Both the position numbers and the translations under genes were made by a program. From Nereocystis luetkeana (Eukaryota; Sar; Phaeophyceae; Laminariales; Laminariaceae): DNA of 64,000 bases. The first letter of the stretch is position 1. Every line of letters begins with the position of its first letter. Under the pieces are notes generated by a model. It was given only the letters and a program-made list of their open reading frames with translations, was not told where the DNA came from and searched no databases. Below, one piece after another: positions 1-64,000 of this stretch. The stretch lies in contig JARUPZ010000005.1 of NCBI GenBank assembly GCA_031213475.1, forward strand, positions 8,056,988 to 8,120,987. Direction: 5' to 3'.

Positions 1-650
1 CAGCCAGTAGTTTCCAATCGCCGAAGTTCGTTTGGAAAATTCCACGTAATTGACAGAACCCGTAATCACTTGGCCATTGGCCATCCAAGAAGTCCGAGCA
101 CGCTGGGGTGCGGGAAATGGTCGACCCTTTCATTCATTTGTTTGGACGATTCCACTTAATACGAAGCCCCCCGAAATCGGTGGTTTGGACAATTCCAGTG
201 AATAGGCAGCACTCGAAATCGTTTGCCTAGAGGTTTTCGATTAGCGGACAGCACCTGAAATCAGTTGTCTGATCAGATGTCTGGACAATTCCAAGAATGG
301 ACCAGCACCCGAAATCAATAGGCTGGACACTCTCAATTAACTGGCAGCCCCCGATATAAATTGTTTGAACAGTTCCAATTCATAGACAACCCTCGAAATA
401 TTTTTTTCACACAATTCCAATTAATAAGGTGGTCTTTGAAACCCATTGTCTGGACAATTCCAACTCATAGCCAATCGCCGAAATCAGGGGTCTGGACAAG
501 TTCCAGTTGATGGACAATCGCCGAAATCAATCGTCTGGACAGTTTTCAACTAATGGGCAATCGCCGAAACAATCGTTTGGACAATTCCAATCAACAGAAA
601 GTAGCCAAACCAATCGTCAAAAACAATTCCAATTAACAGCCTCCAAAATC
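1..650. repeat. Decayed satellite, unit about 41 bp
   Basis: The phrase TGGACAATTCCA followed by TTAATGG and AATCGCCGAAATC recurs about every 39-44 bp, most regularly between 327 and 620. At least 12 diverged units are visible and the array runs off the left edge. The 80-codon frame at 507-749 is a product of the repeat. Confidence 0.8.
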
Positions 651-2221
651 AATTGTAGACACCATACTCATACGAGTGCACTACACAACGTATTGAAATA
701 CAGCAGTAGGAATTGTCGAGGGTGTTGTCTATACTACATGCACGTGTAAGGCTGTTCAGATTTGCACGAAAGTTTAATCGCGGTTGAATATGTAGCAGGA
801 GTACTGGTAGATATGTATGGTCTACCAGGTACATGATACCAGATGCGATCGGGGTGCCAGGTGGGCCTCCGGCGGCTCCTACGCAGGGCTGGTTATGTTC
901 CTGCACCACTGGGTCGGAGCAGGATGCCCAATGGGATGGACCCACTGCGGGGTCAGAGCATCAAACGGGAACAGGGTGACAGGCGGTACAAAAAAAACAC
1001 GAGCAAATCCAAATAACCTTGCAGGCACGTGCAATTTCTCCGCCAGTGCAGTGCAGTTATCGCACGAAAGACAACAAGACAGCACAGCAAGGTTCTCTCA
1101 CGTCGGACGTCCTACAGCAGTACGTACAATACGCATACGTACACGCATACACCAGCAGTACTCGTATACGCGTACCACACACGGGGTCGGGGGGGCGGGG
1201 CACCTGCACAAGATTCTGTCTGCGTTCCACCTTTTGATGACGACGAAAAAAACAGCCGCCACTCCAAACCGTTGCTCGCGGAACGTTTGGCAAAGTTCCC
1301 CCCCCGGGAGCGTTTTCAAATTCAACGTTCAAGGCGCACCTGGCTGGCAAGGTATGGTGCCTGGTATGGCACTACGAATGTGGCATGAAATAATTTCAAC
1401 GCCTTCATCTTTACGCATATACGGCACTGGGGGGCTCTCAATAGTGCCGATGGAATAGTGCCACTGCTCCAAAATAATGCTCGTGAAATCGCGTTGGCAT
1501 GACTGGAGTCGTCAATACTGCCGGTACCGGCACTACTGGGAGCGGGCTCTCAATATCAATAATATTGTCAGTTACACTGCCTGCGCGGTTGTGATTAGTG
1601 CCGGTTCAGGCCTCCGCAACAGTACAAACCCTCCCAGCCCTTGGCTCAGCTTGCTGTAGATGAGGCAGGAGAGACACACGGCAGCACAGCAGTACGGTAC
1701 CGGCAACCACACGCGTGTACATCACACACCCCGGCAATAGAAGGTACTGCTGTTGTAGCACACCTATTACCAGGTACACATATGAAACCTACAAAAGCGA
1801 ACAAAACTGCAAGGCAATCCAAGATTCACAGCAGTAGAGGTAGAAAAAAAAAGAAATTTGGCCGTGTTAGAAAACGCCTATTTTCAAAAGGGGAAAACCA
1901 GCCTGGACCAGTTTTCCTCTTTCGCGTCTACTATTAGTAATAGGTGTCCAGGTCCCGGCCCCCTGTCCTGTGGAGCACGACAAGTAGAGGCACACTTACG
2001 TCCCGTCCAACCGGTGAATTGCTGTGCCGCACGACAAAAGACCCTGACGGCCGCGCACGCATGGAGAGCGACAACAACAACCGGTTTTCCTAGTCGAAAA
2101 TTGCGTTTCTTTCCGACAACAGCAGTGGGGGTGTCCGCGCACAAAATAAAATAGAAATGATGTGAGGCGAGAAAGGCCTGCTCATCTATTTTCCCCTTTC
2201 CGGCGACTATTATACTGTAGT
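651..2221. other. Non-coding stretch without a recognised gene
   Basis: I see no family match on either strand. There are scattered TACCAGGTA words (near 826 and 1768), a GGGGCGG/CCCC-rich patch near 1190-1310, and a phrase about TAGTGCCG that recurs near 1440-1620 and 4920-5040. The longest frame (817-1458) has no protein-like features. Confidence 0.5.
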
Positions 2222-4215: not shown

Positions 4216-7200
4216 TAAGCTCGTAATATTTGCGCAGTTTGAATAGGCCTTTTGATTGAATAGTGCCGTCTGTAACGAGAGAATGGATGAGCATAATATT
4301 TCGTGACACTTTTTATTTTGCGCAGACACTCGAGTGATGATAGGTATCGATCGACCCACAAAAACACAACGTCAAAATCGGCCTTGACAGAGGCCTTTTA
4401 AAACAGTGGGTGTAAGGAAAAGGGTATTCAGAGGCGAAACGCCTTCCGCCCACAAACCCCGAATTTCTTGGATCTTCGATATCTCGAGACTACTACTGTG
4501 CCAATAATGCTATTTTTGTTTTTGTTGGTGTCATTGACGGCTGTCATAAATGACACTATTTTCGATTTTGGCAAAGGAAATACGTCACCAGGCATCTTGT
4601 ACCTGGTTCAAAACAAAACACGATCTATTTGAATACCGGTATCGTCGGAAAGGCAATTCTCAACTTTTCGTAGGAAAAATCGGCTGTTCTGGGGAGATGC
4701 CGCCCGCTACCTACAGAAGGCTAGGATGGCGATGCATCGCAGCCAATGCCTCTAAACCGGCTCGACAAGGCGGGCATGGACAACTAAATTTGAGAGGCTA
4801 TGAGGAGAGGAGGGGAGAACAGGAAAGCACAGCAGGAGTACAGAGTACAAGCAGCAGCACGTACTATATACGCACATCGTTTGTACAACTTCAATTGCTC
4901 AACAATTCGCACAAAATGTTCATCAAGCGTCCCGGCATAGGCACTATTGAGGGCATTTCAGACCCGAGCAGTGCCGTTATCGGTAGAGCATTCCCAAAAA
5001 AGCCGGTGGCCCGAATAGTGCCGCTTTTAGAGGGCTGGCACGTACCGGCGACGATCGGGAGCCCCCCACAGCAGTAGACACAAACCGAAGTATCCTATTA
5101 CATGCTACGGCATTCGGCGTGCAGCACCTCAGCATGCATGTATATAGAACATGTTGTTTCTTGTTCATTTTTGTTTGTGTTGTGGTTGTTGTTTGTTTTG
5201 TTATTTTCGTTCTCGTTGTTGTTGTTGCTGCTGTTGTGGTTGTTGTTGTTGTGGTTGTTGCCGTTGTTGTTGCTGTTGATGTTGTTGTCGCTGTAGTCTT
5301 CATACGTTCTTCACCCAACGCAGCGTCCTCGTCAAGTTTGGCGTGAAAAAAAAAGTTTCCGTCTGACTCAGAGTGACCGGTTTTCCTTGGCGGGTCCTCT
5401 GTAGGCCCTTGACGAACGAGCCCGTGCTTCTGTTTACCGTTTCTTAACTGCATGCACTTGTTTTTTTTGGGGGGGACGGGGGCGGGGATTACTCGAAATT
5501 AGTGCGGGAATATTTCGGCAGTAGTAAAGGGGTTCAGTGCTCCGGCGTTACAATAGGGTTTTCGCCTTGTTCAGAGAGAGTAGGCGTTTTTTTCACACGT
5601 TTATAGCCGGCCCACACGAGCCCATGCTTCTTAGTTCCTATTATTAATAGTTGAAATTAGAGCGCTCAGCAGCAAGAACCATACACCAGGTATACTACGT
5701 AGTAAAAACCGCCCACTCTGACCGAAGATGTAGTAAATATTTAGACACGAATACGGGCATCAAGCGGTTCTTATTTTCCGCGCAGAATGGCAATCCTACC
5801 AGTACCAGGGATAGTATAAACCAACGTATGCCCAAGGTCGATGTCACAATGAGGTTTCAGTGTTCTTCAAAAGAGCAGGCGTTTCTTTTCGGCGGGACCA
5901 CGTAATGTACGCGGTTGGCGAGACCATGATTCTCAGTTGGTTGATAGGGTATATAAGTGCTTGGGGTCCTCGATCGGAAAATAGAAAACAGAAAATAGAA
6001 AATATTGATAAGCGTCAGGTGCATCTTTGTGAGTCTTCAACCCCCGGCAAGAAACGCAGCCGCAAATATCGTGTACACACCCATAGACCACACTTCCACT
6101 CGATACTCCCGAAACATGTGGGAAAAAAAAAATCCGTGTACTATTAATACTAATATTAATAGCACGATACAACAATGGAATCTTAATCTTCATCTTCCGC
6201 GCGCCCCCGAACGCGTCTCGCGTGGCGCACCGCGCATCAGAGACGAAAGGACAGCCCTTGGAGCACGGTGGAACACGGAACACGTGGTTCCAGTCACCAT
6301 GTATGTGGCCATGGCCGTTGCCATCTTCATTCGTGGAATTATGGAGCGGAACGTGTCACTGAGTACCAGGTACATGTCATCGAGGGACCTGACTCCAGAA
6401 GGCGCCCGTTCAAAAACTGCACCAACCCACGTTTCGGCGGGCAAATTGCCTTGATTTCGGGTCGATTCACTTTCGGAGAAGGGTGGGCAGGGTAGAGAAG
6501 ACGGTGGGAAGGTTAGGGGGGGGAGGGGGGGTACTCATTTGTTGCTTGACATAATAATTTGACTATTAACCACGCATCCCTTTCGAGACGGGAGGGGGGG
6601 GGGGGAGGCAGCAGGTGCTTGTCTGTGCACCCGGTATTTGTCTCTCTTTGCAAGTCCTACACAAACGTCGGGGTACGAAAAGACTAATGTCACCCTGCTG
6701 GCTCTTGCTCTCTCTCGGGTTCGAATCTCCGCCGGTTATTTCACTGTACGTGGCTTTTTACTTTTTACTTTAGATCGATGGTCCCGTCTCCGAATTTTTT
6801 AGTGTATGTACACATTGTACGAGTGAGAAAAAAAAACTCCATGAAAACGGACGAACGACGAGCAACGAACTGCTGTACGAGGACGTAAGTGGGGATCCTG
6901 AACCCTGTATGTAAACAAAAAAAACATATAAAGAAGGGAAGCAAGTGCCGGGGGGGGGAAGGAGAAGGGAAGCCTCTTCAAAATTTTAACGGCTGGGTGG
7001 GCCTTTCGTTTTCATTCAGCCACTGAAAACGTCATCAGAATTTTTACCTTGCGTCAGTCACCCCACGTCCGAACGCCTCCCTCCAAAGGGGAGCATTGTT
7101 CGCAAATCTACATTAATGTACTTTCCCGCTTGACTCAACTCGTGTATACGCTGGAGCGTTCGCCCTTGGAGACCTTCTCATATCGGTTAAATACAAAAGA

Positions 7201-10137: not shown

Positions 10138-10751
10138 CATGGGCGGCTGCATGCTGCACGATGTGAGAGGAAAAAAAACACACACATTTTACTTTTGTGA
10201 CGCAAAAAAGAGCAAGCTGTAGGAGTGGTATTTTGTACGTGCGGACGTACGATCATGCAATGTTACAACATTACGTCGTATACGTATAATATGTACGTAC
10301 AGCGGCGGCGCAGCAGAGACAGCTACAAAGCAGAGCATTACTCGTACGTATACCTGGTACAGCAGTACCTTGATTACTGCCACCGGTACGTACGGCCGTG
10401 CAAACGGACGGACAAACAGAGCTTTATGTTGTAGGTGCCAAAATGTTGACTTGTCGGCCTGTCGGTGTTTGATGGAAAAATCCAAAATGACTCGTGCAAT
10501 GATTCCTAAATATGCAGAATTGCGGGTCGGCGGGTCGGAAGCTCACAGCCATGATCACAACTATCAAGTGGGTCGTATGAGCATTCACTATTATGAGTTT
10601 TTCACTGCCAGGTTTACGAGTATTCATTATTCACTACAATACGAGTATTCACTGCGCGTACTGACAAGGCTACTTACGGACGACGTACTGCTGCTGCGAA
10701 TTACACTACTGCAGCCGCTGTACTCTAGTGCTGTACGTGCTTATTTGGTCT

Positions 10752-11636: not shown

Positions 11637-11976
11637 TAGTAGCCTCGCTCCTTGGTCTTCCCTCTTGAGAACAGCGTCTGGACTGGCGTAAATTCGTGGA
11701 CTAAGCAGTACCGCTGTTGCAGTATACCAGGGAATACCGCACGCCACGTATCAGCAGTAGTTGCCATTCTTGGTTATTAGCCACCGAAAAACTGAAAAAC
11801 GAAAAACCGAGGTGAACATACCCGTACCAGGTGCGAGCACGTCGTAAGTTTTATACGGCGGTACCTAAAAAAACAACTATTAATACCAGGTATTAATATT
11901 AAAATTACACCGGCGGTACTCTGTCTAGCTACTCACTATAGTCGAGTATCGCTGTAGAGGTAACTTACACGTACGC

Positions 11977-12513: not shown

Positions 12514-13573
12514 TAATTTGCGATAGTTGCTTGCTTTGGTTTTTTTTTGTCTATTGCTACAGATTTATTAATAGTATCTCTCTCAGGATAAGGAATAAGG
12601 ACGGACACTGGGTGTACTGGTGGAGTTGGGTAGAAAGAACGGTTTAATGCGACGACAACACACACAAGTTATATACCCTAGTACCAAGTAAACAAAAAAA
12701 ATAAAAACACATGTGTACCTCAGGTATCATACTGCATATATATACCTGATACCACCACAAGTACATTATCTACACAACATTTGTGTCTGCAGTATTTCTT
12801 TCTACTCAACTATTAATACAATACATCAAAGTACACTCAGTGTCCGTCCTGATTCCATGTCCTAGAGAGATACACATGGCGTGGTCGCAGACTTACTGCT
12901 GGGTGAGACAGAGGAAACCAAAAATACGTATGTGTCGCAAACGAATCAAGGTGGCAAGTGAAATGTTCACGTACTGTTGTTGTTGTTGTTCTCACATTAA
13001 CTCTCTGACGAAGGAGTCCGTGGTCACACATAGGTGATGTACCAGGTACCGGGTACGAGAATACAGCGAAATAACTCTGTACTGGCTGTAATGTATACCA
13101 GGGTACCAGGTATATAAATATACATATATTCATCGGCGTATTGTCTGTACCTGTGTACTTGTTGTCCTGTTGGATGATCATATCTTGACAACGTGTTACA
13201 CAATTTCAATGCATCTTGCCGCGGTACACATGCATGCAATTTAGATAGTGCACGAGCTGTCGCGAGAAACTCGCTCAGCAGCATATTTATGCCTGTCGTC
13301 AAATTGTGTGCGTTGGGTCTCTTGATGAAAAACCCGAGTTTAATCAACAAAACAAAAAAAATGATACTGATAGTACTGGGTACGAAAAGAACACACGACC
13401 AGCAACTACACTATTTAATGGTACGCCGATAACACGCCACCCCACCAGCCACCGTTGACCTGCCCGGCGCCGATCACACACCCTCACACCCCTAGCGGTC
13501 CTGCCACACATCCAGAACACTCCTGTACTACAACTCTGTAAAGCAAATACGCGTACGATAGCACTCTGTAGTG

Positions 13574-13789: not shown

Positions 13790-14175
13790 CGGCAGACATA
13801 GCGCAGCGAGCCATTCCCATCTAAAACAAAAGGGTGCGCGCGGTCTTGGCGGCGGCTGTCCTGCCGCGTGACGCGGTTGTGAGTGGGCCCGCTGTGCCCT
13901 CCGACTGCGCCGACGAGATAAAAGATCAACTGCTTGCTGCTGCTGATGGTCCGCAGATGCTGTGGGTAGAAGGGACAACAAATGCATACCAGGTATATAT
14001 ATGCAGGACACGAGAGACCAGCACAGCACAGCACAGCAGGTTTATGTAGCCCACCGACACATTCCCATCCAAGACATTGGACGCGCAAGGCCTCGGCGGC
14101 GGCTGTCCTACCGTGTGGTGCTGTGGTGTGGGTGCAGCCCGCCGTGCTCTCTGTCTGCTCTGATCTGATGGTTTG
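13790..14175. repeat. Two diverged direct copies of a GC-rich segment
   Basis: The order CATTCCCATC, then GCGCG, GGCGGCGGCTGTCCT, GTGGTGTGGG/GTGAGTGGGC, and GGTCCGCAGATGCT/GGTTTGCGGACGCT appears at 13810-13965 and again at 14056-14187. A third piece in opposite orientation lies near 55600-55690. Confidence 0.6.
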
Positions 14176-14681
14176 CGGACGCTACTTGTTGAACTGCAGT
14201 GGTGGACGGTGTTCCGTTTTTTTTTTTTTTTTCGGAGATCATGTCCTACAGCGATTTCGAAAGAGCCCCCCCCCCCCCCCCCCGAAAAAAAGGTGCCGAG
14301 CATATTAGAAACTCGCACTCGCTCGTAATAAAGAGTACCAGAGAATAGAATATATATCGTACATACTGCAGATGTGCACGGTTTGGAGCATATTGTGCTG
14401 TAGTTGTTACTGAAGCCGCTTTTGTTGCTGCAGCCGCGGGTGCTGTGAACCATACCTAACGTCGACGTTTCCGACCCTCTCTTACGAGCTACACACTCAC
14501 CAGGTACTGACGAGACAAGAGGCAGGTTAGGACAGCTGTACGACCTATAGTATGTACAGCAATACAACAAAATAATATCATACGAAGTACCTGTATGATG
14601 CGATGTACCTGTATGATGCGATGTCTTTCCCGCTTTCCGATATACCAGGTATATCAATAGGAATCAGAGTATTAGACTTGA

Positions 14682-14771: not shown

Positions 14772-16089
14772 TCAAGCGGTACCAGGTACATCAACAACGC
14801 CTGGTACCAGGCGCACTGATTGTCATTACTATTCTGAAGCGAAAAAAGCAGGAACCTACCTATTAATAGTATAATTTTAATTTTTGCACAAAAGTATCAT
14901 AGCGCAGAATTGAAATAAGTCCGATAGTCGGCACCTCCAGGAAACGGCCGACCAATATTTAATAGTCCAACTATTAATATTGATACCAACTACAGCAGTA
15001 GATGGTGACGTATATAAGTGTGTGTGTTCTTCACATTAAACCGTTCTTTCTACCTATCAAGTACCAAGTCACTGCTCTAGGAATTATAAAGTACGGAGTC
15101 GGACGTACCTACTGCTTTGGTTATTGAGTCTGGAATTGGAGTAGTGCTGTTGTACGGACGTATTGGCTTGCCTCGTACCCGATCACGTACTGCTTGCTTC
15201 TACGTAACCGTTTTCTACGATAGGTCTGTCAGCCTGTCAATAGACGTCGATCCAATGGTTGATGGCGGAGAAAAACCCTCTGGAAAAAAATGGTTTCGAG
15301 TCCCAAGCCTCTTCGCTGTTTTCTCCTCCTCTTGCCCCAAAGAGCGGAGAGAAAAAAAACTCTCGAATCTCAAAACCGTCCCGCTCCGCGTGGGATCAGG
15401 TCCGCATCAGGTCCGAATGGGAGCGCGGCGGTGCCAAGCGGGAGCAGGGTGTCAAGAAGCATAATTCTCCCTGTAATAATAATCCCAGACTAGGCAGGGG
15501 TGAGTATTCCCCATTGGGACATACCTGGTATCTAATACCAGGTACGTGGGTATACGCGCGACTGCTAGTGCTGTTTTTTATGCCGTCTACTATTAATACG
15601 AATACCAGGCTGTTTTTTATGCTGTCTACTCAAAATATTAATTCAACACCAGGTACTACAGCAGTAGGTATGATACACTGCTGTTGATAGTTGTGATGCG
15701 GGTGTAGGCTACGAGTGGTATACAGCACCTGCAGGACGTAAAGGTATCTGGTTCACCAGCAACACAAACCCGTGAGTCGTGGCAGGCAGTACTTTTGTAA
15801 TACCGTAATAATTAGTTACAGCTTGGACTACAGAGGTAGCTAACCCGTGAATGATGATGAAAAAGTATACCTGGTGTACATAGTGGTAACAGGTAAGAAA
15901 TAAGCTGCGACTACAGGTATGCGACAGGCAAGTTATGAGCAGGCACGCGAGTCAGGCGAGGCCAGGCGCACACGGGCGTCATTGAAAGAGGAACAAAAAC
16001 GACGAAAACACCCTCTTTGCCTCCTTCTTGGCTCTTCTCGCGGCATACAGCCCTACGCCTACGTGTACGAGGCTACATATATATATATG

Positions 16090-16249: not shown

Positions 16250-16654
16250 GCACTGCCCGTCTACTGCTGAGGAGGTGAAAGATGCATGCTCTATGATTTT
16301 ATATATATCGAATCGTTACGTGCTCCTGCTGCTTGCTGCACTTCTATTAGACATATCAATATGAAAACATCGGTAGTACGGGTGGTACATCGCACGCCGT
16401 ATCGTACCATACATCCGTATTGACATACTGGACGTACCGCCTGCGCCACGAACAACACGAGAACACCACCAACCCATATTCCGTCTCCCCAAAGGTGAGT
16501 CCGAACCATCATCGGAGCCCAGCCAGGTATCATACGAGTATCAGGGATCACATTCGAATCACACGCACAGGGCAAGAACGGAGAGCTTCTCCGCAAGTAT
16601 ATTATACCTGGTATACCTTTAGTCGGTAGTAGTATTATAGTATAACTAGTGGTA

Positions 16655-17156: not shown

Positions 17157-19019
17157 CTAATACTATCAATAATCAGTCCACAGCGGCAAGCGACGGGGAG
17201 GAGTAGCGCGGATAACAGCCATCAATCGTCGGGTTCATGGAACGCGACCGCTTCCGCCATTATAGCAGGTCAAGGTACACGGTACCGCTGCACGCCTGAT
17301 GATATAAGCCAGTGTAAGAAAGCTGTAAGTTGCCCCAAGTATATACCAGTACGATACGTACAACATGCAATATCGGGGGACTATTATTAACAATATTGAT
17401 AGCAGTTTCACGCATGATGCCAGAAAAGTACTACCGAATACCTGTCACACATGCATACCTAAGCTATCGCAGCGCCAAGGCTTGGTTGTGCGTATTGATA
17501 GTATTAAATAGCACGTACAAACATTGAAAGCCGCTCCCGCTTGAATACCTTCAAAGCATTGTCCTACGGATAAGGTGGGCTGAGGATCACAATATTAACA
17601 CTAATAACCCTGGAGGGCTGAACTGGCGGAATCTGGGAAGCAAGTATTTAGCGCCGTCGTGTAATCGGTACTTGTGTCATGCATCGTACGAATTACTTGT
17701 CAATTCCGGGCTGTCCCCCTGTGCAGCTGCTTCGCAGGCGCTGGGCCGGCCAGGCCCGTCGACTGGGGGCGAATGTATGTGAGTACAAAAATACAATTAA
17801 AAAAATTGCAGAAGTAAAAAAAAACAAGAGAAAGAAACCATCGGATTAATATTCGTACATTTAATTTACTGAAACGTACACATAACCACATAAACGGATA
17901 CATACGTATTATACAAGCGTATACAATAGGTTGTTTGGTGCCGGCGATACATGTCAGATGTCAAAGACTTCGCGACGACTAGGCATGAGAGAGCGGGAAG
18001 AGGAGACAGCAGAGGATTGGGCTTGCACAACGAGACAGGGCCGCTCTGGCAGCGTTGGCGGTGCTGCCTCCTACTCCCACAGCCCACTATAAAGACCAAC
18101 GCGACTGACTCTTTCATGAGAAAAAAATAATCACGAGCGAGGGAATGCTCTGTCGTTGGTCGTAGGGAAAAACTAAACACCCAATAAAATAGAGCTGCAA
18201 AATTATACCGCGCGGCGTGTGGAAAAAGAGAAAATAATAAAAATATGGACGAAAAAGGTTCGTGGTCGACTGGTGTCATACTGCTGTCCTTTCGTGTCTT
18301 CTTTCCCGTTTCGTGTTGTGAATCGTGAGCCACCCTCCCTCGGGTGTTCTGCCTTGGGCGACAAAGCCCGCAGAACGGCAAGCTATTATGTAACTAATAT
18401 TAATAAATCCTGCTGTTGCTGCTGCCGCTGCCGCCACTGCTGCTATAAAACATACCGGTATTCAACACAACATACTGCAGTTGTACACATGTACCAGGTG
18501 TGACATGGTATAATATTTTATGGTGTATGTGCGGTACTCAGTACATACTACCCTCGAGCGCACCGCGCGAACGCTTACACGCACACGTGTTGCAGCCACT
18601 GCTGCACGCTGCACGTCGACTTATTTACGAATACCGCCTTTCGTCCGAGGACACCGACCGGACCGCGAGTGGTAAAAAACAAATAACACAACAAATAACT
18701 CTTTCACACCAGGTACTAATGTTGTAAGTAAATACTAATAATATCGTATTGTCATTCATATTATATACCATGGTAGTCTTTACAGCGGCAGCAGAATAGT
18801 ACCAGGTATACGACAGAGCGGCAGTAGTGCTCGAACAGCACGACTCTTGTTTCTTCGTTTTGTACCACGCGAGGCCTCCCCTCCCCCGTGACGCGGGGCA
18901 TTTCATCAACAACAGTTTTCACCGGGTCGGTACGCCCTGCAAACTAAGGACTCGTGATCTCGTGATAAAATACGGCGGCGTAGAGTAGAAACAGAAAAAT
19001 GAAATGTGAAAACACACAG

Positions 19020-44870: not shown

Positions 44871-46360
44871 TGGCATTTGTGTGGGATCAGTTCAAGGGAC
44901 GAGTCCCTCAGTCGTCCGAAAGTACACTATGAACAGTTCATAACAGTAGTAGCGTGGTGGCGTGTTTCAGCGAAACAAGCCACTCGAATGATTCTGGCCT
45001 ATAGGGATTTTCTCCCCGTTTCTTCTCGTGTTTCAGAGGCTAAAGGAGTTTGCTCACATCTCGGAACGCAGCTCGGAACAAGCGGGGAGATTGCGCCCGG
45101 CGGGCAAATTGCAGCACGGGGGTGGGGGGTGGGGGGTGGGGGGGGGGGGGGGGGTTACTTGCGTATATGCCACGGTATCGATGAAACCCGGCGCCCCACT
45201 CTTGATTGACACAACAAAAACGAGGCAGGTAATTCGTCGCCAAACATGCCTCAAATAACCCTGCGGTGAAGTGTACATTACCACCTGCATTATGTTCTGG
45301 CGGACAGATTTGCATCGAAAGAGGTGGCAAGCTTCCCGGTGCGGTCGCTAAAAGCTTTCTCCAAGTGTCTTTTTTCGATGCTGGCATTAAAGCTTGGTTT
45401 CGTGAGATACGCCGCTCCCTGGGATACCGCCAATTTTTCCTAAATTTTGAGCACCGCTCGAGACGACCCACCCAGAGACATCGGTCTAAAAGGGCATCGA
45501 GCGACGAGCCAAGACGTCTTGATGGGGTACAGCAGTGTTGATAGTGCCGGCTGCCCGCCATAGTATTAGTCTAGTGCCTTTGAAATCGCTTGGCACAGAT
45601 GGGACAAATAAAACCAGTGTGTGGCAGTGTGTGAGGTACTAGTGCCGGTTTCCGCTAGATGTATACCCTGGTAGTTCGGTATCGTTGCCCCTGGCGCATG
45701 CATGCATACCTACGCCGGCACTAACAACATAGGGAAACATTACTGCATCACCAAGAAAGCAGAAGCCCAAAACAACCCCCCCCCCCCCCCAAACCTTAAC
45801 ACCCTTGAAATCTTGAAAGACCTGTTGACCTTTTTTTTTGTTTGACGATTAAAAGAACGGTGTATATGTTTGGTGTCATCAACTGTCTACGAGCAGCGTG
45901 CGTATCAGCCGCCAGCATCACGGGTAGGAAGGATTCGGCAGCGCACGACTCCTTGCGTTGCAACTCGTACACCAACCTCATCACCCCCCCCCCCCGTATA
46001 TCACTAGAAGTCGTTTTGCTGCGATCGTCATTTTTTTCATATTGTCAATTTTCCTATCTCGAGTCCCAAGGCGGATTCATATCGATAAGAGTACAGAAGC
46101 ACGAAGCCAACACAACCCTGCCTCTTGGAAGACGAAATAATTGACCAGATGTCACGAGCCTGCGCTTCATAATAACCGAAGCAGCAGAAAACCGTCTTGG
46201 AGGACATTCTGCTGCAGTACGCGGCACAGCGGTTTTTGGTCTTCGTCACCCGCGGTAGTACGAGTACACTGCGGTATATAGGTGGTGACTCCATCATCGG
46301 GCCTTATCAGGGCCACGTCCACCATCCTACGCATGTGACGCTAGAGCTATGAAGACCCAG
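44871..46360. other. Gene-poor stretch
   Basis: Two overlapping open frames at 45266-45541 (+, 91 codons) and 45040-45561 (-, 173 codons) have no recognised motif. G and C homopolymers lie at 45136-45153 and 45776-45790. I see no other structure. Confidence 0.4.
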
Positions 46361-48790: not shown

Positions 48791-48952
48791 CAGGGGAGTC
48801 ACCGACCTCCACCCTTTGAATGCTGTATGTGTGATGTGCTTTGAGTTATGATGCGTACTGCTGTTTCGTACCAGGTATTGTTCTATTTTGTTCCTGAGGT
48901 CTTCTTCCACCTTGGAATTATCGGAGGCTGTCTGTCCTGTGGCCACAAACTA

Positions 48953-54970: not shown

Positions 54971-55204
54971 TGAAATTCTTCCCTCGATCGGCCAGAATAC
55001 TTGAGTACAGCATGGGCCCGCCAACAAAAAACGCCTACTAGTAGTAAGCGCAAGCCTCGAGCCCTCATCGTGACCCCGTTCCTCCAACAGCCTTAAGCAT
55101 ACCCTACCACATACCACTCCGGGCCGAAATGTAAGAACCGTTTCGTCTTAAAATAAGTGCGTAAGCGCTCCTTATATTTCCGTCCAGATTGGTCCAAAAC
55201 AAGT

Positions 55205-55287
55205 TACCACTCTGTCCGAAAATATAACGACGATTCGAGTACAAATTTGATGATAAACGGTTCTTTACATTTCCGGACAGAGTGGTA
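55205..55287. mobile_element. Family-C Stowaway-like MITE with intact ends
   Basis: TACCACTCTGTCCGAAAATA at the left and TTTCCGGACAGAGTGGTA at the right, so TA|CCAC...GTGG|TA is complete. The element is 83 bp with the two TA copies included and has no coding capacity. Confidence 0.85.
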
Positions 55288-55299: not shown

Positions 55300-58200
55300 G
55301 CCCTCGTCGCTGAGCATGATTTCTGACTCCAAGATTTCTTACAGTAGTGTCCCCCAAAAATGAGTCTTTTTTTCTTACTATTTTAATAGGGTAAGAACGA
55401 GCGACATGTGAGTGTTCTAATTTAGACGGCGCTTTTGTAAGGGACCTCCCCGTTAAGAAATCGCCGTGTCGTTTAGCACCGTATCCACGCTCACGGCCGA
55501 GATGATCCACGATGATCTCCGAAAAAATCCGCAACAGCGGAGTAACATCACACGTCAGATCCACCTAACACAATTTTCGCACCGCAGCAGCAGTACGCGT
55601 AGGACCAGGCACAAGGCACACGCGGGACCACAGCCGCCGCCGAGGCTGTGCGCGCCCGGTAGTGTCGAGGATGGGAACGCCTCGCTGGAAAACCTGCCGC
55701 GCGTCGCCGCCCTCCCGTGCGCATTCTGTTGTGCGCTCTCTTCTGCTGCAACCTCGCGAACTTTGATCTAACGCTGCTATATACTGCCGTATCGGAGGTT
55801 TCGGAAGCGTAGCGGGTCGAAAAATGCACCGTAGCTGTACACGCAGCGCGGGGTGGCTAGGGGCACGGGTGCGTTGGGGTATGACCTGCGGCGGGAAGGT
55901 CCACGGTGGCTGGTGAGGTCGGGTGTGCTCGACGGACTCGGACTCGGGTATTCGGTACTCGAACAAGAAAAACAACAGGAACTAGTTTCTCGCGCAGAAG
56001 TTGCTTCATTTTCTGCTTTTCGTAACCGGTACGTTTTGTTGTATGTTTGTGTGTGTGTGTTTTTGTTTTTGTTTTGATGTTGTTCGTTTTCCGTCAACGC
56101 GCACCGAAGCACACACGTTGGCGACAGTTACAAACATCCTGCTGTTCTCGGCGACAGCTATACTACGTTTTCTTAATAGTGGGCCTATAACGGCTGTAAA
56201 GCGGCCGAGGTGGAAAATTTCATGCCCTGTCCTCGCGGCTCGGGTCCATCATGCGCTTCGGGGCGGGGAGGGGCGGAGCGTCAACGTAGCTGTACCAACG
56301 AAACGTCAACGCCGCGCTATCCCCAACCACCCCTTCTGATAAGAAGGAGCCCCACAAAAAACTCAGCCCTAACAAAATTTCCGGACAAAATAGGAAAATT
56401 CGAAAAGCGGTTGCGCTGAACATAGTGTGGAACACACCCCTCTCACACAAGAGATCTACGTAACATACATAGCCGACGCCAATATCTCGGATTCCTAGCA
56501 TTTGAAGAGGGTCGTTACAACACCGGTGCACAACCCAGGGCGATCCACAGGAGCTTTCGCTCTCCACGACTTGAGTTAATCGTACGGTTAGGGGCGGGGC
56601 GGAAAGGGTCGAAGCCGCCCTGTCCAGTGGAAACCGCCGCGTGCGCCTCGAGAGCTACGATGCAGCTGTTGGCATGTAACTTCGCACTGCCTGACCTTGT
56701 TCGCGCGATCAATGCGATGAGCGCTTTCAGGCTGGGTGCGCGTCCGTTTCGACATTTTGTGGTGCTGTATACTGCGGTCTGTGATCTCGCGGAGCGGGGC
56801 GTCTGCCTGGGCAAAGCCCTTCCCGCCACCTCTCGTAAGAACATCTTTCATTCAAAGGTCGTCAAGAGTGCTAGTCCTTTCGGCTCCTCGTACCCTTAGG
56901 ACCGGTGGGACTCAATCCTTGCAGGCCTCCATGTACCGAGTAACTCCATCTTTTCAAGCCCGCACGTACCCTGAGGAATGGTGGGACTCAACATTTTTAG
57001 GCCCCCAGGTACCCTGAGCACTGCTGGGACTCCTCAGTCCTTCCAGCTCCCCAGGTATCGGTGGGATTCAGTCTATTGACGACTAGAGCTACAGCAGTAG
57101 AACTCTCCATTTTCTTATTCCTTGGAGATCTCAGGCTGGGTTTCTTGTGGGGGCTCCTTGTGAGAGGACCGGTACGTGTGTACCAGGATCATACAATCAA
57201 CCGTGCAAGGTGCGTGGTACCGCCGCGGTGAGAAGGACAAAGTGTGGCGCGGTTGGAAAGAAAACTATTAATGCAAAACGGTATTATTAATAGTACCTGC
57301 CTGGTACTCTGTACGACTGGTACAGGTACGAACAACAGCAATATTTTTAGGGGCGGGTGTGCGCGGGTATCCACGTCTCGTTGACGTGACTACAAAAAGA
57401 AGCCCGTTTCTCCGCCCCCCCCCCCCCCCTCCTACCTACCAGCAGAGAGCAGCGGCTAATATTGCCTATTGCCCCATTTGCAGCGGTACCCTTTTAGGGT
57501 TGCCCTCGGTCTTCCGATGGCGACGGCACTCCCACTCATACGTAAGCGATGGGGACTTTTATTACTATTAATATTGTATTAATATGAATACCAGACTTGA
57601 CAGTAGTAGTTGTTATTTAGACTGGTACCAGGTACCAGGTACCAGCTGTACCTGGTACCCTGGTATGTAACATGCTGTATCAGACGAAATGGACGAAAGC
57701 GGGTACGAAACGCGTTCTGACTGCGATGCCCGCTCAATGATCAACCCGACCAACCACTGCGAAGATGCCCCGTGTTTGTGATGGTACGGCAAGTATATAG
57801 TGCACAGGGAATCATGAAGGGTATTTTCCGGAAAGTGGTAACCTGCGGAAGCTCGCCCAGAAGCAAGGCGGCCGGGCGCAAAGCGGCAAAGCAGCGGACT
57901 GACCCACCACAAGGGTCGATGTAGGGCACGGCTTTAGAGCTTCACAGCAGCCGTGAATGCGGGCACTCGTGACCAAGGCAGTGCCCTCTGTCAATTTCAG
58001 ACCTCAAGGCACTCACTTTATCGCGTGTCCCTTACTTCCTCGCTTCCGGCTTCTTGCTCGTACCCGATGTGTCTTTGAGCTCAAATCACTCGTCTTGTAG
58101 GAGTTGCAAAACCTCGTAATGGCTTTATTATTTCGGGGGTGTAAAGGGTACGTTATTTTCACCCGGTGTCGTGTCCGCCGCCACAATGCCCGTCTTCCCA

Positions 58201-58398: not shown

Positions 58399-58699
58399 TT
58401 GATATGTTCTTTGTTGTCGAACAGCCTTGGTTCAAACTCGGCATCCAGGGTCTGGCCTGGCACATTGCCGCACGATAGCAACGGCATGAGTACCATCAGC
58501 GATGCCATACGCTTGCACTACAAGCTCGTAAGCTCCGTGTGTCTGCCTACCCGCCTACCCCTGCTGTATTGCAGAGCTGCCGCGGCGATCTGTGCGCCAC
58601 TGCTGGCCTGGGCGTGGACCAGACACCTCCGCTACTGGTACTACGAGTACTCCCCCATCGCCTATCCCGGGGATGTCAAGACCAACCGTCTGCAGAGGA
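58399..58699 (+). other. Possible short exons of unknown gene upstream of the cyclase
   Basis: A segment after gtcgaacag (about 58425) is open, includes SNGMSTISDAIRLHYKL and ends at CTC|gtaagc (58527). A second segment after tgtattgcag (58574) is open and ends near GAGGAG|gtatgc. The joined frame remains open, but the intron would be under 50 nt, unlike others here. I do not recognise the protein. The minus strand of 58128-58337 is also open (69 codons), so the coding strand is not certain. Confidence 0.2.
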
Positions 58700-58960
58700 G
58701 GTATGCCAAAATATGGCTCCTATTATCACTTACTACGGTATGCAAAGCACGAATGCTTTCGTACCAGTACGAGATCTTGAGCACTCTGCAGTAGGCGTGC
58801 TGCTTGTACGCTTGCACGCGTTGATACCTTGCTCGTCATTGTGTATATGGTGCGGAAGTAGCGACCCGTAATTGTTGTAATTGTGCGCCTATCCGGCTCG
58901 TTGGTTTGAACCTTCATTTTGCGTCCCGCCCCAGACACGTGTCCACTATTATTAATAATA

Positions 58961-59079
58961 TTACGGGGGACCACAGTTAATAGGACCTACGGTACATACA
59001 AAAACCTACCTGGTATATATTTACCTACTTTCACTATTAACTAACAATATTTGGTCCTATTTACTATGGTCTCCCGTAA
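58961..59079. mobile_element. Family-A MITE with two micro-additions
   Basis: Ends TTACGGGGGACCACAGTTAA and GGTCTCCCGTAA with TA on both sides. Relative to 42723-42827 it has TACCTGGTA at 59007-59015 and TATTAACTA at 59035-59043, each in place of a single TA. Confidence 0.9.
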
Positions 59080-59929
59080 TAGTCGTACGCAGGTACGTGT
59101 GTTGCGTCCTGTATTTTCGTATTTTCTTCCATCGCACGCTCGAAGCCGCTACGTACCAGGTACGTACGCAAAGTTCAAGCAGTACCGCACAACACGCTAA
59201 CGACAACACGCCCCCTAGGACGATTTTCATCGCTGGGTTTCTCGACAACGCAACGGGGAGGGAGGGCGTACTGAATACGTCGAGCGACGCGTCTGTGCAA
59301 CCTTCTCGACGATTTTTTTCCGAAGCCACCTCTTTCGTCCAGGCGTTGTGCGTGCCCCCCCCCATGTTTTGGAGGAAAAAGTGTGCCTGAAATTCGTACC
59401 AGGGGGTGTGTTATCTTATCACTCAGTGTGATACGGTATGTGTCCTTTCACAGCGGTGGACAGGATGGTCTCGAAGGCCATCACACTCGTGCCTCACGTG
59501 GCTGCCTGCACCTTCAGCTGCTGAAGCTGCAGCCTCGTATAATATCGACAAAGCGATCGAAGCACACCAGTAATTATATGATAGGATGAGTGTTTGTTTG
59601 TTGTTGTTGTTGTTGTTGTTGTTGTTCTCACATCAACTCACAATACAATGCAGTCCGTGGTCGCAGGACAGGCTCCAATAACTCTGGAGTGGAAGAAATA
59701 CCTCGGTAGTAAAACAGAGGCAAAAAGAAAAAACAAGCATACGCACTCGACCACTGCGGACACCAGGGGTGTACCAGAACATGAGGCATTGCCAAACCGA
59801 GGATGCACTTGTGAAGCGATGTTTCCCTGAAAGGGGCTAAAAATCCTAAAAAACGCTTTTGGAAGCACACCCAAGTGTTGGTGATAGCATGCCCCCACAC
59901 ATAGGACCAATCACTGACAGATCATCTGC

Positions 59930-61019
59930 AAATCGCTCCCACACTTCATGATCTAGATATTTCAGGGCAGATAGATAATCTAGTCCTGATCTAGATCATC
60001 TAATTCATGTTGCGGGGTGGGAGCCGTATGATATATGACCTAGTACATATTTCCTACCCTGGTATTTAAATAGATTGGACTTGTACTATAATACAGATCC
60101 TTCACAGCCTCCCATAACGGCAGCTTATGATCTACAGTAGATGATCTATCTGTAGACATGATGTATCTGATTTTTCCAACGCGTAAAACACTTGGAAATA
60201 GACTAGATTTTGTGGTTTTAGCGGTGAAGGGACTGAAAATTCATTGACCCTCTCTTCCATTTCGTATATACACATGTATTTTAAACAAATTAAAAAGACG
60301 CCCTCCTCTGTGAGATTGAAAAATTCCCGCCATTCATGCATCGCACCCATACCCCAGCCTCTCTCTCTCTCTCCTTCCAGAGGGCGCTGGGAACAAAACG
60401 AATGCAACAGCGTTGGACGCACCTGTGGATGGCGTTTAAATGAGGACTGCCGTGCTCTTCCTGAAGACATGCCACTACATATGACCCGCTTGTATATAAC
60501 AATCGTTTGAACAAGATATGAATACGAAAGGTCCTTGTGCTGCAGCAGGGTGGTAAAAGGTGCATCGTACCCATACGCCATCCCGCCCTCTCTCGCCGAC
60601 AGAGAGCGCTCTTCGCATAGGAGAACAAGACAAGCAATACCAACAACATCAGCAACGCCAACCAAAGGTTTCTCACGTCGAACAGATAGATCGCGATCTA
60701 CCTGTAGATCACCTAGATCCTTACTTGCCGGTATGAGATGCTGCGTGGGACCTGTGTGATAACAGATCCAACGCAGAAAATATGTCCTAGATCATGCGGA
60801 TTATGAGGTGTCCACCCGGCAACATGAACTAGATCATACAGATCAGGAATCTATCTACCCTGACAGCTTTGCCTGGCAGATCATACAGCGGGAAATCGAT
60901 GATCTGTCCCATACACCCTCCCTCTCACCCTTCCAGAGGGCGCTCTTCCTACAGACTATACGCACATCGTACCCATACCCCACCCTTCCTCCCCCCCTCC
61001 CTTCCCCCTTTCCTTCCAG
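59930..61019. promoter_or_regulatory. Region upstream of the cyclase with GATCTA and CCAGAGGGCGCT repeats
   Basis: Words such as TGATCTAGATCATCTA, GTAGATGATCTATC and TAGATCATACAGATC recur from 59945 to 60900. A second unit (ATCGTACCCATACCCC, pyrimidine tract, CCAGAGGGCGCT) occurs around 60340-60385, 60558-60610, 60900-60950 and 60968-61030. The last copy supplies the likely splice acceptor of the first recognised cyclase exon. No promoter can be fixed. Confidence 0.5.
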
Positions 61020-61272
61020 AGGGCGCTGGGAAAACAGGACGAGCTCCTTGCCCGTGGGCTGGAAATTTTTCAGCGCCAAGGACTCCCACGAGCGAACGGA
61101 AGAGCGCTGGAGCGAGAGCGGTCTCAAGCTGACGGGGGAATCAGCCGGCAGGCAGTCGTGGGACAGGACGAACGCCGGGCACCAGCCGTCCCCGGATTAC
61201 GCGGACGAGGCGTTAATGTTCAACCCCGCGGTTAACCCCAACTCGGGGGATAAGGTCGTCCGCGCGCAGCAG
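61020..61272 (+). CDS. Oxidosqualene cyclase, first recognised exon
   Basis: The frame ends CGCGCAGCAG|gtgaga in phase 0 and holds ESAGRQSW and a Pro/Asn-rich linker. A strong acceptor (a pyrimidine run of more than 30 nt, then ccttccag) at 61019 suggests this is an internal exon. The frame is also open upstream to an ATG at 60808, and a second possible acceptor (tttttcag) lies at 61073. The initiator Met is therefore not settled. Confidence 0.65.
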
Positions 61273-63867
61273 GTGAGACACTCGGGGGGGGGTGCAGTTT
61301 GTTTTGGGGTGCAGCACGTCGTAGTTTTTGCTTCTTTCCGGCGACTGCTGAAACGAAGTTGTCCGGGACTCTGTGCTTAACGTCTGCGAGGGCTACTGTC
61401 ATTGTCTGCCATTGTCCTCAGATTCTATATACTGTATAACGTAGAGGGTGTTATGTCCCCGCTTGAAGAAGGCCGGTGTTGTGTTTGGAAACACATCGAA
61501 ACCTGAACTCGCGAGACTTTTCGAGGAAGAGCGAGAGTTAAGTCCTAAAAAAATAGTTGTAATATTTGCCCGACAGACTAGCCCGTGGTGACAAGACAAG
61601 ACATGCGCAACAATCAATTCTGGAAGAAAACACTTCAAGAAGAAGAGCTAGACTGTCCGTTTTAAGTTTTTTTTTGCGTGTATGTCGTATGCAGTTGATG
61701 TTGTCGCAAGGCCTTCTGTCCTTTATGTTTCGTCCTCTGTTGCCCTCTGTCCTTTGCCTCGTGTGTCTCTTGCCTTGCGTAATTTGTCCTCTGCCTCGCG
61801 TCCTTCCCGCTTTGCCTCGTGTCACGTGTCCCTCGCCTCGTGTGCTTTGCTTTGTGTCCTCTGTTCTGGTTGCCGCCAGCTACGGCAGTGGAAAGGTGAG
61901 AGGCCTGACGAGACGGAGACGCCGAAGGACGCACACGCCGCCGCCAAAAAGGGTTTCGCTTTTTATCAGGCAAGTCAGATTGTTCTGGAATGCTAGAAGA
62001 GGAAGGGAGGGAGGGAGGGAGGGCAGAGGGAGTGTTTCGCGTTCACTCAGGCAGGTTTTTGTTTATGTGGAATGCGGTAACGGGGAGAGGGGGGGTGCAC
62101 TCGATAGGAGAGATGTACTCGATCTCATCCATGGCCGTAGTCGTATGACCATAGACGCTCGCATCCCTACAATGCCAGGACGGAGCATGTCGGGTTTTCA
62201 CCGACCACGCAGACATTGTGAGGCAAGGTGTCCGGCGAGTCGCATGAAGGGTGAGCTGCATCCTACTAAGAATCGCTTGTAAGGCAGACTTGCATATGGA
62301 TGACAGCTTCAATGAGTTAATTTAGTTTCCGGTATGGCCACTTCCATATGGATGCCAGCTTCAATGAGTTAATTTAATTTCCGGTATGGCCACTTCCAGA
62401 GACAGCAATGGGAGTACTATGTAACTGCCTCTTGGGTGCCTTACCTTGAACACTGCGTGATACGATCAATTCCCTTGTGCGGAGTAAAGGTTCTTTACCT
62501 CGCACAAATGATCTAACTTGACAACCAACTGTGGGCGACCGCAAAAAAAAAAAGAAAAAAAAGACGGCACCCAGGTTGTCTAGCTCACGTAGTGAGCGGC
62601 ATGTTTTTCAGTGTCGTTGCCAACCGACACCAACCCAACCTATGTACAATAGGGGGGAGTGGGGGGGGAGGAGAGGAGAGGGGAGCGGGAAGGGGCTGTT
62701 TTGCGTTTCGTCAGGGGGTCATGGGGATGAAGAATGCGGCGAAGGGCGGGGGTCTGTCGTTTCGTCTTTTGTCAGGCGTGTTGCGTTGATTGGGAAAGGG
62801 GGGGAGGGGAGAGGGGGGATATGTTGTTTAACCCGTCGAAATGACGGGTGGGTGGGTGGGTCGGTTGGTTGGTCGAAAGGAGGTGGCAACACCGGTCGCA
62901 TGCGCGCGCGCACATGGAGTTTCTTGACGACCGTCGCCGAAATTCGTCGGGCCGTACGATACGAACTCGTTTTTTTTTTCCCCTCCAGCATCTCCCCTGA
63001 GAGGTGTACTCTGTCGTACTGATATATGGACACGTACACTACTTACGATGTACCGTGGTCGTACGTGCTGTAGTGGAGACCGCGGAAATTGGGCTATCGA
63101 ACCGTCACCAGTGCCGCCGCCATTCCGAGCCGCGAACCATACCATACTTTGAAGTTTATGATAGGTTGTTCGCAACGAATTCGGTTGGGACCGGTTCGGT
63201 AATTTGGTTCGGTTTTTTGTAGTCTGTTTCCTATAGAAGGGTAGCATCCCAATCCACGAAAAAAACGAGCATCCCTACCTCTACGGCTGTGGGGAAAAGC
63301 GGCCTAACGCACGCCTTGAACCTAGCCATTTTTCAGTTGAGTTCACCCTGGAGGCCTTCGAGTTCTCACCTGATACCAACCAACTCCTCAAATTTTTTGG
63401 TCCTCTCATATTTTTTTTTGTAATCCAAATCAAATTGGATTTGTCGCCGAACACCCGAATGGTACGTATTGTAGATTTGAAAAACCGTTTCCGTTACAAA
63501 ATGGTCTATTAGGGGGGACCATAGTAAATAGGACCAAATTGGTAGCGGAAATAACGAAATATATACCAGGTAGTTTTTTTTGTGTGTACCGTAGGTCCTA
63601 TTTAATATGGTTCCCTGTAATAGTCTACGAAATAGCTTTAGTTTTTACCATCGTTTTTTAACGTTTCATACAATACTCATGCTGCATGCGCACGCACACG
63701 CCGGCGTTCCGCAGATGCTACAATGCGACGACGGTCACTGGTCGGGCGACTACGGAGGACCCTTGTTCCTGATGCCCGGCATGATAATCGCCTTCTACGT
63801 CACCGGAACTCCCTTGGGGGAGTCGAGGAGGGGGGGCATGGAGGCGTATCTGCGCAACCACCAGCAG
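61020..63867 (+). CDS. Oxidosqualene cyclase (cycloartenol/lanosterol synthase type), N-terminal exons, runs off the window
   Basis: Three exons (about 61020-61272, 61880-61969 and 63715-63867) join in phase 0. The third encodes MLQCDDGHWSGDYGGP, then PLFLMPGMII, FYVTG and AYLRNHQQ, the highly conserved N-terminal block of eukaryotic oxidosqualene cyclases. The first carries ESAGRQSW, the GRQxW motif near the cyclase N-terminus. The second ends FAFYQ, which normally precedes the DGHW block. The enzyme folds 2,3-oxidosqualene into lanosterol or cycloartenol at ER or lipid-droplet membranes, the entry step of sterol synthesis. Only about 165 of the usual 730 or so residues are inside the window. 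The catalytic DCTAE region and the residue that separates the two products lie beyond the right edge, so the product cannot be named. The first-exon start is uncertain. Confidence 0.85.
61880..61969 (+). CDS. Oxidosqualene cyclase, second exon (GC donor)
   Basis: The exon has 90 nt and 30 codons. The acceptor is tgccgccag|CTACGG and the donor is TATCAG|gcaagt. The GC donor is required because FAFYQ must be followed directly by MLQCDDGHW of the next exon. The rest of the donor (CAG|GCAAGT) is the classical strong GC-AG consensus. Confidence 0.8.
62085..62265 (-). repeat. Family-E repeat (copy 5), most complete
   Basis: Read on the minus strand: AGGATGCAGCTCACCCTTCA, GTGGTCGGTGAAAACCCGAC, TGCTCCGTCCTGGCATTGTA, ACGACTACGGCCATGGATGA and GAGTACATCTCTCCTATCGA, ending in CACCCCC. 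Lies in a cyclase intron. Confidence 0.8.
62293..62398. repeat. 52-bp tandem duplication in a cyclase intron
   Basis: Two units start CATATGGATG at 62293 and 62345, share AGCTTCAATGAGTTAATTTA and TTTCCGGTATGGCCACTTCC, and differ at a few bases. Confidence 0.92.
63509..63620. mobile_element. Family-A MITE with a TACCAGGTA addition
   Basis: TTAGGGGGGACCATAGTAAA to GGTTCCCTGTAA with TA on both sides. Relative to 48953-49057, the ATATATAGGTTTT segment reads ATATATACCAGGTAGTTTT (word at 63564-63572). Lies in a cyclase intron, 95 bp before exon 3. Confidence 0.88.
63715..63867 (+). CDS. Oxidosqualene cyclase, third exon (DGHWSGDYGGP)
   Basis: The exon has 153 nt and 51 codons. The acceptor is gcgttccgcag|ATGCTA and the donor is CACCAGCAG|gttggt. 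It carries the most recognisable block of the gene. The intron before it (61970-63714) holds a family-E repeat, a 52-bp tandem duplication and a family-A MITE. Confidence 0.9.
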
Positions 63868-64000
63868 GTTGGTCGCTTGCCGCTGCTCGAGGTTGGCGGA
63901 TCGCGCGTTGTTTGTGCGTGCGTCTTGTTTTTTTTCATGGTTTTTGTTTTGTTTTAATTACATCGTGTGTGTTTTTTTTCGTACGTTCATTTTTGCGCTA

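Follow-up and report, generated by a model that had tools for sequence, protein, structure and literature searches.

Background

In the excerpted text of PMC3878927, excision of the Tc1/mariner element Sleeping Beauty leaves the footprint C(A/T)GTA and that of Hsmar1 leaves T(T/A)A, and both can be explained by 3-base overhangs that would pair around a central mismatch. Short inverted-repeat elements with TA duplication are also known from the Stowaway miniature inverted-repeat transposable elements (MITEs) of grasses and from Osmar5 and Ppmar2, for which the excerpts of PMC1925063, PMC9632168 and PMC4561436 give footprints of 1-4 end bases and repeated insertion and excision at one site. Excision traces are normally few and varied, so the number of jumps made by a family is usually unknown. 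Here we describe the word TACC(A/T)GGTA, which is scattered through a 64,000-nucleotide stretch of the genome of Nereocystis luetkeana (hereafter the window; C5:8056988-8120987) and through the whole assembly of 465,085,209 bases in 1,987 contigs. We read each copy of the word as the excision scar of a cut-and-paste element with CCAG...CTGG ends that had sat at a duplicated TA, and we put the probability of this reading at about 0.88.

The proposed scar shares with the footprints of Sleeping Beauty and Frog Prince (Tc1/mariner; PMC3878927, as excerpted) the TA target and its duplication, the contribution of both ends, the central A/T and the pairing through CAG. Unlike those footprints, it has one extra base pair per side, CC(A/T)GGTA, which would imply a 4-base and not a 3-base overhang, and it is found in 182,395 natural copies in this one genome. 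The features listed above for the grass elements recur here as well, but the grass footprints in those excerpts are diverse, whereas here one form dominates (1,243 exact words against 299 other inserts beginning with CCA, by one pattern at one site), and, unlike Osmar5 and Ppmar2, the present elements have no mariner-type transposase tied to them. Ectocarpus, also a brown alga, has TA elements too, many of their copies non-autonomous; 17 Mariner-Tc1 families with 11,912 copies are reported, and terms beginning with footprint, excision or mite have 0 occurrences in the available main text of that paper (PMC12477816). Among the literature matches listed for the letters TACCAGGTA no title concerned a genome motif, and among those listed on genome-scale footprints or over-represented palindromes no title described such a case, neither of which is proof of absence; new within the scope of these searches are the abundance, the scar's form with the 4-nt overhang it would imply, and a scar-to-element ratio of thousands to one.

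Abundance of the word and its insertion at a single TA

The window contains 38 exact copies of the word (23 with centre A and 15 with centre T), against a chance expectation of 0.44 and a maximum of 4 over 100 shuffles. Since the word is its own reverse complement except at the centre, the two orientations under which the initial annotation had listed it are one word. That annotation, made from the letters of the window alone, was right about a density far above chance and close with its chance figure of about 0.5; its count of more than 40 was a little too high, and its 13 example coordinates lie 0-9 bases off real copies, 10 of them within 1 base. The enrichment also extends beyond the window, as its proposal of excision footprints demanded: the assembly has about one copy per 2.5 kb, the reversed control totals 1,744, and in a count of all TA-N5-TA words (264 kb) CCAGG comes first with 120 copies, against 17 for the runner-up. 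At 7 bp each, by simple arithmetic, the scars add roughly 1.3 Mb to the genome. A short palindrome in such genome-wide excess is also known as HIP1, the highly iterated palindrome of cyanobacteria, from which the present word differs in being an insertion scar whose empty site is TA and whose flanks are those of a transposon target.

Empty sites were sought in paralogous repeat copies of the 120 words in 264 kb, and a paralog was called empty if a single TA fitted better by at least 4 edits. Among the 73 word-paralog pairs that could be judged, a single TA was the better fit in 48, which involve 11 words, while nine carry the word and 16 were undecided; for control TA-N5-TA words, which partly consist of other scar types (TATTAA-TA), 96 of 644 pairs fit a single TA. 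As 26 of the 48 pairs come from two copies (16 and 10) of a MITE that we call F1, and some of the words are copies of one site, the pairs amount to about seven independent sites. Where the alignment is clear, copies with and without the word differ by exactly 7 bp, namely CCWGG and a TA, and at one place (L018:438) two words in tandem, 14 bp, stand against a TA in the paralog; the word has been inserted, as CCWGG+TA, at a lone TA. The many one-base variants noticed at the outset number 151 against 57.6 expected, a sum in which the CCSGG class (15 copies) is double-counted, and transitions among them number 75 against 20. With the double count removed and the whole excess taken as decay, we estimate a decay of ~7% per site, and the pattern of variants fits neutral decay, unlike that of a conserved site.

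The flanks of the scars form a dyad around the TA, WANNNNR-TA-YNNNNTW. In the matrix built from isolated words (117 of 153, leaving out words that adjoin another scar), A or G precedes the TA in 82%, with A at -6 and A/T at -7, all mirrored on the opposite side, and the -7/-6 pair is TA in 63 of 234 half-sites against a background of 5.5%. On a weight matrix made from the flanks, words score 2.44 (leave-one-out) and random TA sites -2.12.

Minor scar forms and the ends they imply

The minor forms were counted in 353 kb after masking a 12-bp tandem array of ACCAGTAGGTGT (window 37079-37375), which mimics TACCAGTA scars and inflates CCAG and CCGG in the earlier unmasked counts. CCAG occurs 35 times against 11.9 expected and CAGG 19 times against 15.7, CCAGGG 16 times against 1.0 and CCCAGG 0 times against 1.0. 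The dyad flank is present at CCAG, CCAGGG, CCATGG (n=3) and CCGG sites (p between 1.7e-3 and 1.5e-6, with no correction for how many forms were tested), and CAGG and CCAC sites are without it, the latter numbering 16 against 7.8 expected with a flank score of -2.01. This asymmetry, where slippage would be symmetric, argues that the minor forms are primary products of ends beginning with CCAG, not CCAC, and in composition the footprints CCWGG, CCAG, CCAGGG and CCATGG match the bases of both ends of CCAG...CTGG.

The pathway that we propose would begin with the insertion of such an element at a TA and the duplication of that TA. On excision, cleavage of the non-transferred strand would fall about 4 bases within the element and leave the 3' overhang CCAG on both flanks; these overhangs could anneal via the CAG that also pairs in Sleeping Beauty, leaving A opposite A at the centre, and the filling of a one-base gap on each side would give TA-CC(A/T)GG-TA. 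Failed or partial annealing would give CCAG (4+0), CCAGGG (4+2), CCATGG (3+3), CCAGTGG/CCACTGG (4+3) and CCGG (2+2). The form of the scar in this way predicts 4-base overhang cleavage and end joining in an understudied lineage.

The CCAG-ended element F4

Elements with the ends implied by the scars exist in this genome. The element that we call F4 has the structure TA-CCAGTCCGG...ACCAGACTGG-TA, a length of 567-691 bp (most near 575-579) and roughly 20 copies. Its exact 19-bp left end occurs 20 times genome-wide (control 0), and similarity returned the same 20, of which 19 match at 97-100% over their first 63-88 bases and one at 93%, together with a more diverged end on C22 (83%) and 14 right ends in inverted orientation; in 10/10 copies with distinct flanks read at both ends, the boundaries are TA-CCAGTCC...ACCAGACTGG-TA. 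Ends of 12 bp that resemble F4 total 110, and their control 47, which suggests that only tens of such elements exist. The ends of F4, like those of the shorter family F2 discussed below, resemble what we take to be the consensus of plant Stowaway ends. Stowaway MITEs are elements of <500 bp with terminal inverted repeats, no coding capacity and a TA duplication; by its end coordinates, F4 is longer.

F4 shares the dyad target of the scars. On the dyad matrix its sites score 4.34, where random TA sites score -1.99 (p=7.5e-7); the ten flank scores are 4.47, 2.23, 5.51, 7.21, -0.77, 2.85, 6.45, 6.17, 3.46 and 5.82. For the flanks, 16 of 20 left ends were read (without three tandem copies on C9 and the hot-spot copy), 15 of them unique, and 10 of 14 right ends were used, four C9 tandem copies being dropped. 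Since the fifth base of F4 is T, the GG of the scar must derive from the other end, and a 5-base overhang would yield the scar less neatly. F4, which is presumably non-autonomous, appears to be a living relative of the scar maker, not the proven maker of most scars; these were probably made by older relatives of F4. Searches for terminal inverted repeat pairs anchored on TACC..GGTA, or for any TA-flanked ends, gave no CCAG element among the pairs listed (264-353 kb).

In total, scars exceed F4-like elements thousands to one, so that the genome keeps a log of past jumps though very few elements survive. A scar of one dominant form, a candidate for the source end and decay that can be dated would together make jump count and history readable from a single assembly. 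The word may also have promoted its own spread. TACCWGGTA supplies a dyad half-site (TA at -7/-6 and G at -1), and 13 pairs of neighbouring scars lie exactly 7 bp apart (353 kb), from which we tentatively suggest, as a possibility we would not bet on, that the scar is itself a preferred landing site; the element would then enrich its own targets with each jump in a positive feedback, and the scars would form a genome-wide clock. One F4 copy (L090) sits at the TA of a scar chain.

Two further observations concern the arrangement of F4. Five copies lie in C9:5355034-5820271 at a spacing of ~113-124 kb, which looks like a large tandem segmental duplication, and at C54:10304-10660 several extra copies of the 27-bp subterminal repeat of F4 stand beside an F4 end.

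Three states at one target site

The F1 MITE (TA-TTACGGGGG...) has one TA, within ATAAAAACC-TA-TATATTT, that has been targeted repeatedly. Genome-wide, this hot-spot TA is empty in 5,589 places, carries TACCWGGTA in 1,243 and other CCA inserts in 299 (controls 0, 0 and 5), an empty-to-scar ratio that is approximate only, since the three patterns differ in length and anchor. A hand count of the first 100 of the 1,243 scars gave centre A in 63 and centre T in 37, with site and orientation the same for both. Of the 299 other inserts, the first 100, also counted by hand, comprise CCAG+TA 44, CCAGGG 24, CCATGG 11, CCAAGG 4, CCAGGC 3, CCACAG, CCACTG and CCAGGA 2 each, and 8 singles, with CCAC+TA at 0. 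Fifteen of the 299 places were read, of which 11 are short or decayed scars within F1 and three (L063, L067 and L074) do not continue as F1. A further place, L072, holds the end of an element, TA-CCAGTCCGGTCGAAAATATAAGCCTGATTTGG..., which has subterminal repeats of 27 bp; upstream, L072 reads TATTACGGGGGACCATAGTTAATAGGACC...ATAAAAACC, the left half of F1, so that a single element end stands at the hot spot. No matching right end was found for it among the listed F4 ends and F4-like ends, its downstream half being unread.

Empty, scarred and occupied states coexist at paralogous copies of one site. With this, the core of the initial annotation is supported, namely that excision of an inverted-repeat element with a TA target left the words as scars, which record very many events; its interpretation is supported in part only, for the CCAC...GTGG ends to which it traced them give way to the CCAG ends indicated by the minor forms and by the lack of a dyad flank at CCAC. 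As a separate observation, L067 (C1:21794857-21794905) reads ATAAAAACC-TA with a decayed scar and then (CCCTAA)n telomere-like repeats, ~75 kb from the contig end.

A second scar class with its own element

TA-TTAA-TA, which we regard as a second class of scar, occurs 106 times against 2.3 expected in 353 kb. Twenty-four copies are in the window, at 5642, 6142, 6154, 9725, 11878, 11891, 12566, 12811 and 16 further positions. Such a scar would be the product expected of TTA overhangs pairing through TA, as the TTA ends of F1 (TTACGGGGG) would give. On a matrix of TTAA scar flanks, the insertion sites of F1 (n=15) score 3.15 against -1.67 for random sites (p=2.6e-8), and on the CCAGG matrix they score -4.11; the sites of F2 (n=11) score -2.31 on the TTAA matrix and 1.75 on the CCAGG matrix (p=4e-5). 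F4 sites do not match the TTAA matrix. These reciprocal scores for F1 and F2 indicate that in two families, which differ in their targets, scars and elements correspond, and F1 with the TTAA scar serves as a positive control for the pairing of scars with elements.

Evidence against the excision reading

Several findings weigh against the excision of CCAG-ended elements as the source of the scars. At the hot spot only one end of one element was read, the centres stand at 63:37 and not at 50:50 (100 listed of 1,243), and some of the scars may have been inherited through F1 amplification. In the ten F4 copies the preferred A (T on the right) adjoins the TA in 18 of 20 half-sites and G in 0, while scars have G next to the TA in 38-46%, so that recent F4 targets are narrower than those of the scars; in the 15 unique left flanks the base next to the TA is A in 9, G in 3, C in 2 and T in 1. 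With ~20 near-identical copies, F4 itself cannot be the source of 182,395 scars, and an older or more active CCAG family has to be assumed. In the masked spectrum, CCCGG is found 19 times against 3.2 expected with a weak flank signal (p=0.065), and in the unmasked counts CCACG (8 against 3.3; flank p=0.019) and CCACGG (4 against 0.8; flank p=0.053) are mildly enriched, all these flank p-values being uncorrected.

On the side of the enzyme, DDE_3 transposases (PF13358) gave 0 matches and DDE_1 (PF03184), the type that a pogo/Fot1-like element would carry, gave 28, several with open frames, none of which is linked to F4. An inverted DDE_1 pair at C34:4445281-4457054 has an F4-like end, CCAGTCCGGTCCCAAATACAAAG, 8.5 kb away, and together they make a candidate autonomous element, as a lead only. 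No DDE_1 gene lay within 20 kb of F2 ends in the first 100 of 1,893 places (C1 and the first half of C2), and Pfam scans of 20 long open reading frames gave one reverse transcriptase only. For a reverse transcriptase from locus L011, four of the 120 hits listed carry the name Ectocarpus, which points to a brown alga, and one more hit has an organism name, a fragment from a bacterial bin.

Features of the window

Coordinates are those of the window, with the strand in brackets.

823..831 (+) scar TACCAGGTA, exact word
1768..1776 (+) scar TACCAGGTA, exact word
6364..6372 (+) scar TACCAGGTA, exact word
10351..10359 (-) scar TACCTGGTA, exact word
11884..11892 (+) scar TACCAGGTA, exact word, TTAA-class scar on either side
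13040..13048 (+) scar TACCAGGTA, exact word
13096..13105 (+) variant scar TACCAGGGTA, 4+2 form, joined to the scar at 13104..13112
13104..13112 (+) scar TACCAGGTA, exact word
13987..13995 (+) scar TACCAGGTA, exact word
14643..14651 (+) scar TACCAGGTA, exact word
14780..14788 (+) scar TACCAGGTA, exact word
15522..15530 (-) scar TACCTGGTA, exact word
15536..15544 (+) scar TACCAGGTA, exact word
16605..16613 (-) scar TACCTGGTA, exact word
18766..18775 (no strand) variant scar TACCATGGTA, 3+3 form
18800..18808 (+) scar TACCAGGTA, exact word
23193..23201 (+) scar TACCAGGTA, exact word, TA in common with the scar at 23200..23208
23200..23208 (-) scar TACCTGGTA, exact word
23768..23776 (+) scar TACCAGGTA, exact word
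25609..25617 (-) scar TACCTGGTA, exact word, TA in common with the scar at 25616..25624
25616..25624 (-) scar TACCTGGTA, exact word
26267..26275 (-) scar TACCTGGTA, exact word
26553..26561 (-) scar TACCTGGTA, exact word
27932..27940 (+) scar TACCAGGTA, exact word
28093..28101 (+) scar TACCAGGTA, exact word
32671..32679 (-) scar TACCTGGTA, exact word
33139..33147 (-) scar TACCTGGTA, exact word
33823..33831 (-) scar TACCTGGTA, exact word
35013..35022 (+) variant scar TACCAGGGTA
37064..37072 (-) scar TACCTGGTA, exact word
37504..37512 (+) scar TACCAGGTA, exact word
40389..40397 (-) scar TACCTGGTA, exact word
41173..41181 (+) scar TACCAGGTA, exact word
43753..43761 (+) scar TACCAGGTA, exact word
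45664..45673 (-) variant scar TACCCTGGTA
48869..48877 (+) scar TACCAGGTA, exact word
55112..55194 (+) decayed Stowaway-like MITE, apparent sister family (TACCACTCCGGGCCGAAATGTAAG..)
55205..55287 (+) Stowaway-like MITE F2, TA-CCACTCTGTCC..GGACAGAGTGG-TA, apparent sister family with similar target preference
57626..57634 (+) scar TACCAGGTA, exact word, start of a chain
57633..57641 (+) scar TACCAGGTA, exact word, same chain
57649..57657 (-) scar TACCTGGTA, exact word, same chain
57656..57665 (-) variant scar TACCCTGGTA, same chain
58959..59081 (+) MITE F1, TA-TTACGGGGG..CCCGTAA-TA, with a scar at the hot-spot TA
59007..59015 (-) scar TACCTGGTA inside F1; 16 F1 copies (264 kb) fit a single TA
59154..59162 (+) scar TACCAGGTA, exact word
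60055..60064 (-) variant scar TACCCTGGTA
63564..63572 (+) scar TACCAGGTA in another F1 copy, which runs the other way; a single TA is the better fit in 10 F1 copies

The Stowaway-like MITEs that the initial annotation reported come down to one clear CCAC-ended element, at 55205-55287, and a second, more decayed one at 55112-55194.

Alternative explanations

The first alternative, and the one that the initial annotation had favoured, is that the scars come from F2 (CCAC...GTGG) and consist of three bases of one end and two of the other. F2 is a TA-flanked family of 83 bp, within the size of a Stowaway MITE, and has 1,893 exact ends genome-wide (control 8). In the copies scored, identity to the window copy is about 80-85%, a divergence which indicates that the family is old and which agrees with the decay of the word. 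The target sites of F2, of which 11 were unique after copies in compound repeats and copies without a TA on one side were dropped, score like scars (p=2e-5 to 7e-5), and it would also suit this origin that CCACG and CCACGG are mildly enriched and that 5 of the first 100 inserts at the hot spot are CCACGG, CCACAG or CCACTG. However, with CCAC ends the main minor forms should be CCAC (4+0) and CCACGG (4+2), whereas CCAC sites are without the dyad flank and CCAC+TA is absent from the 100 hot-spot inserts in which CCAG+TA and CCAGGG account for 44 and 24. CCAC overhangs would moreover be unable to pair mutually, and the element end at the hot spot begins with CCAG, not CCAC. We consider this origin unlikely and reject F2 as the direct source on the scar spectrum; given its scar-like target preference, F2 looks like a sister family, whose CCAC ends would leave the spectrum unexplained.

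The site of F2 itself offers no three-state test, since in its host repeat, queried with joined flanks, F2 separates the halves in nearly all copies scored (40 of 184 candidates); one contiguous copy, at C32:4663162, has 153 bases where the query has 160. Another ten places with F2 added no usable site. The host is a moderately repeated sequence (AATACTCTACCG..GGTACGTACGAG; L025, L027, L031, L035, L042, L046 and others), and as nearly all its scored copies hold F2, the element seems to have ridden along in the spread of the repeat.

It is less probable still that the scars arose without full insertion and excision, either from short end fragments that were inserted or from break repair at TA that added CCWGG+TA. 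Such a route would account for the thousands of scars per known CCAG element and for the single element end read beside 1,243 scars at the F1 hot spot, but many jumps per element followed by loss of the elements would give the same ratio, and complete F4 copies have the matching ends and target that excision of a CCAG-ended element calls for.

We see very little room for a third view, that the word is a protein-binding site (of a transcription factor, an insulator or a replication factor) under selection genome-wide. Its near-palindromic form, symmetric flanks and huge copy number are what such a site would have. A functional motif is rejected because the word, within repeats, stands as 7 inserted bp where other copies have one TA, decays with an excess of transitions, forms chains that share a TA (the 13 neighbour pairs at exactly 7 bp) and has the flank preference of a transposon target.

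Spread of the word as a microsatellite-like or palindromic repeat through replication slippage, the least probable of all, would fit the chains at 7-bp spacing but is rejected on the asymmetric length variants, as it predicts CAGG and CCCAGG as frequent as CCAG and CCAGGG, which is not observed, while most copies are isolated (117 of 153) and both centre forms occur at one oriented site.

Apart from these scars, inverted ends do not explain the side word TACAGCAGTA/TACTGCTGTA, which has 42 copies against 1.1 expected (353 kb), mostly with C/G adjoining the TA.

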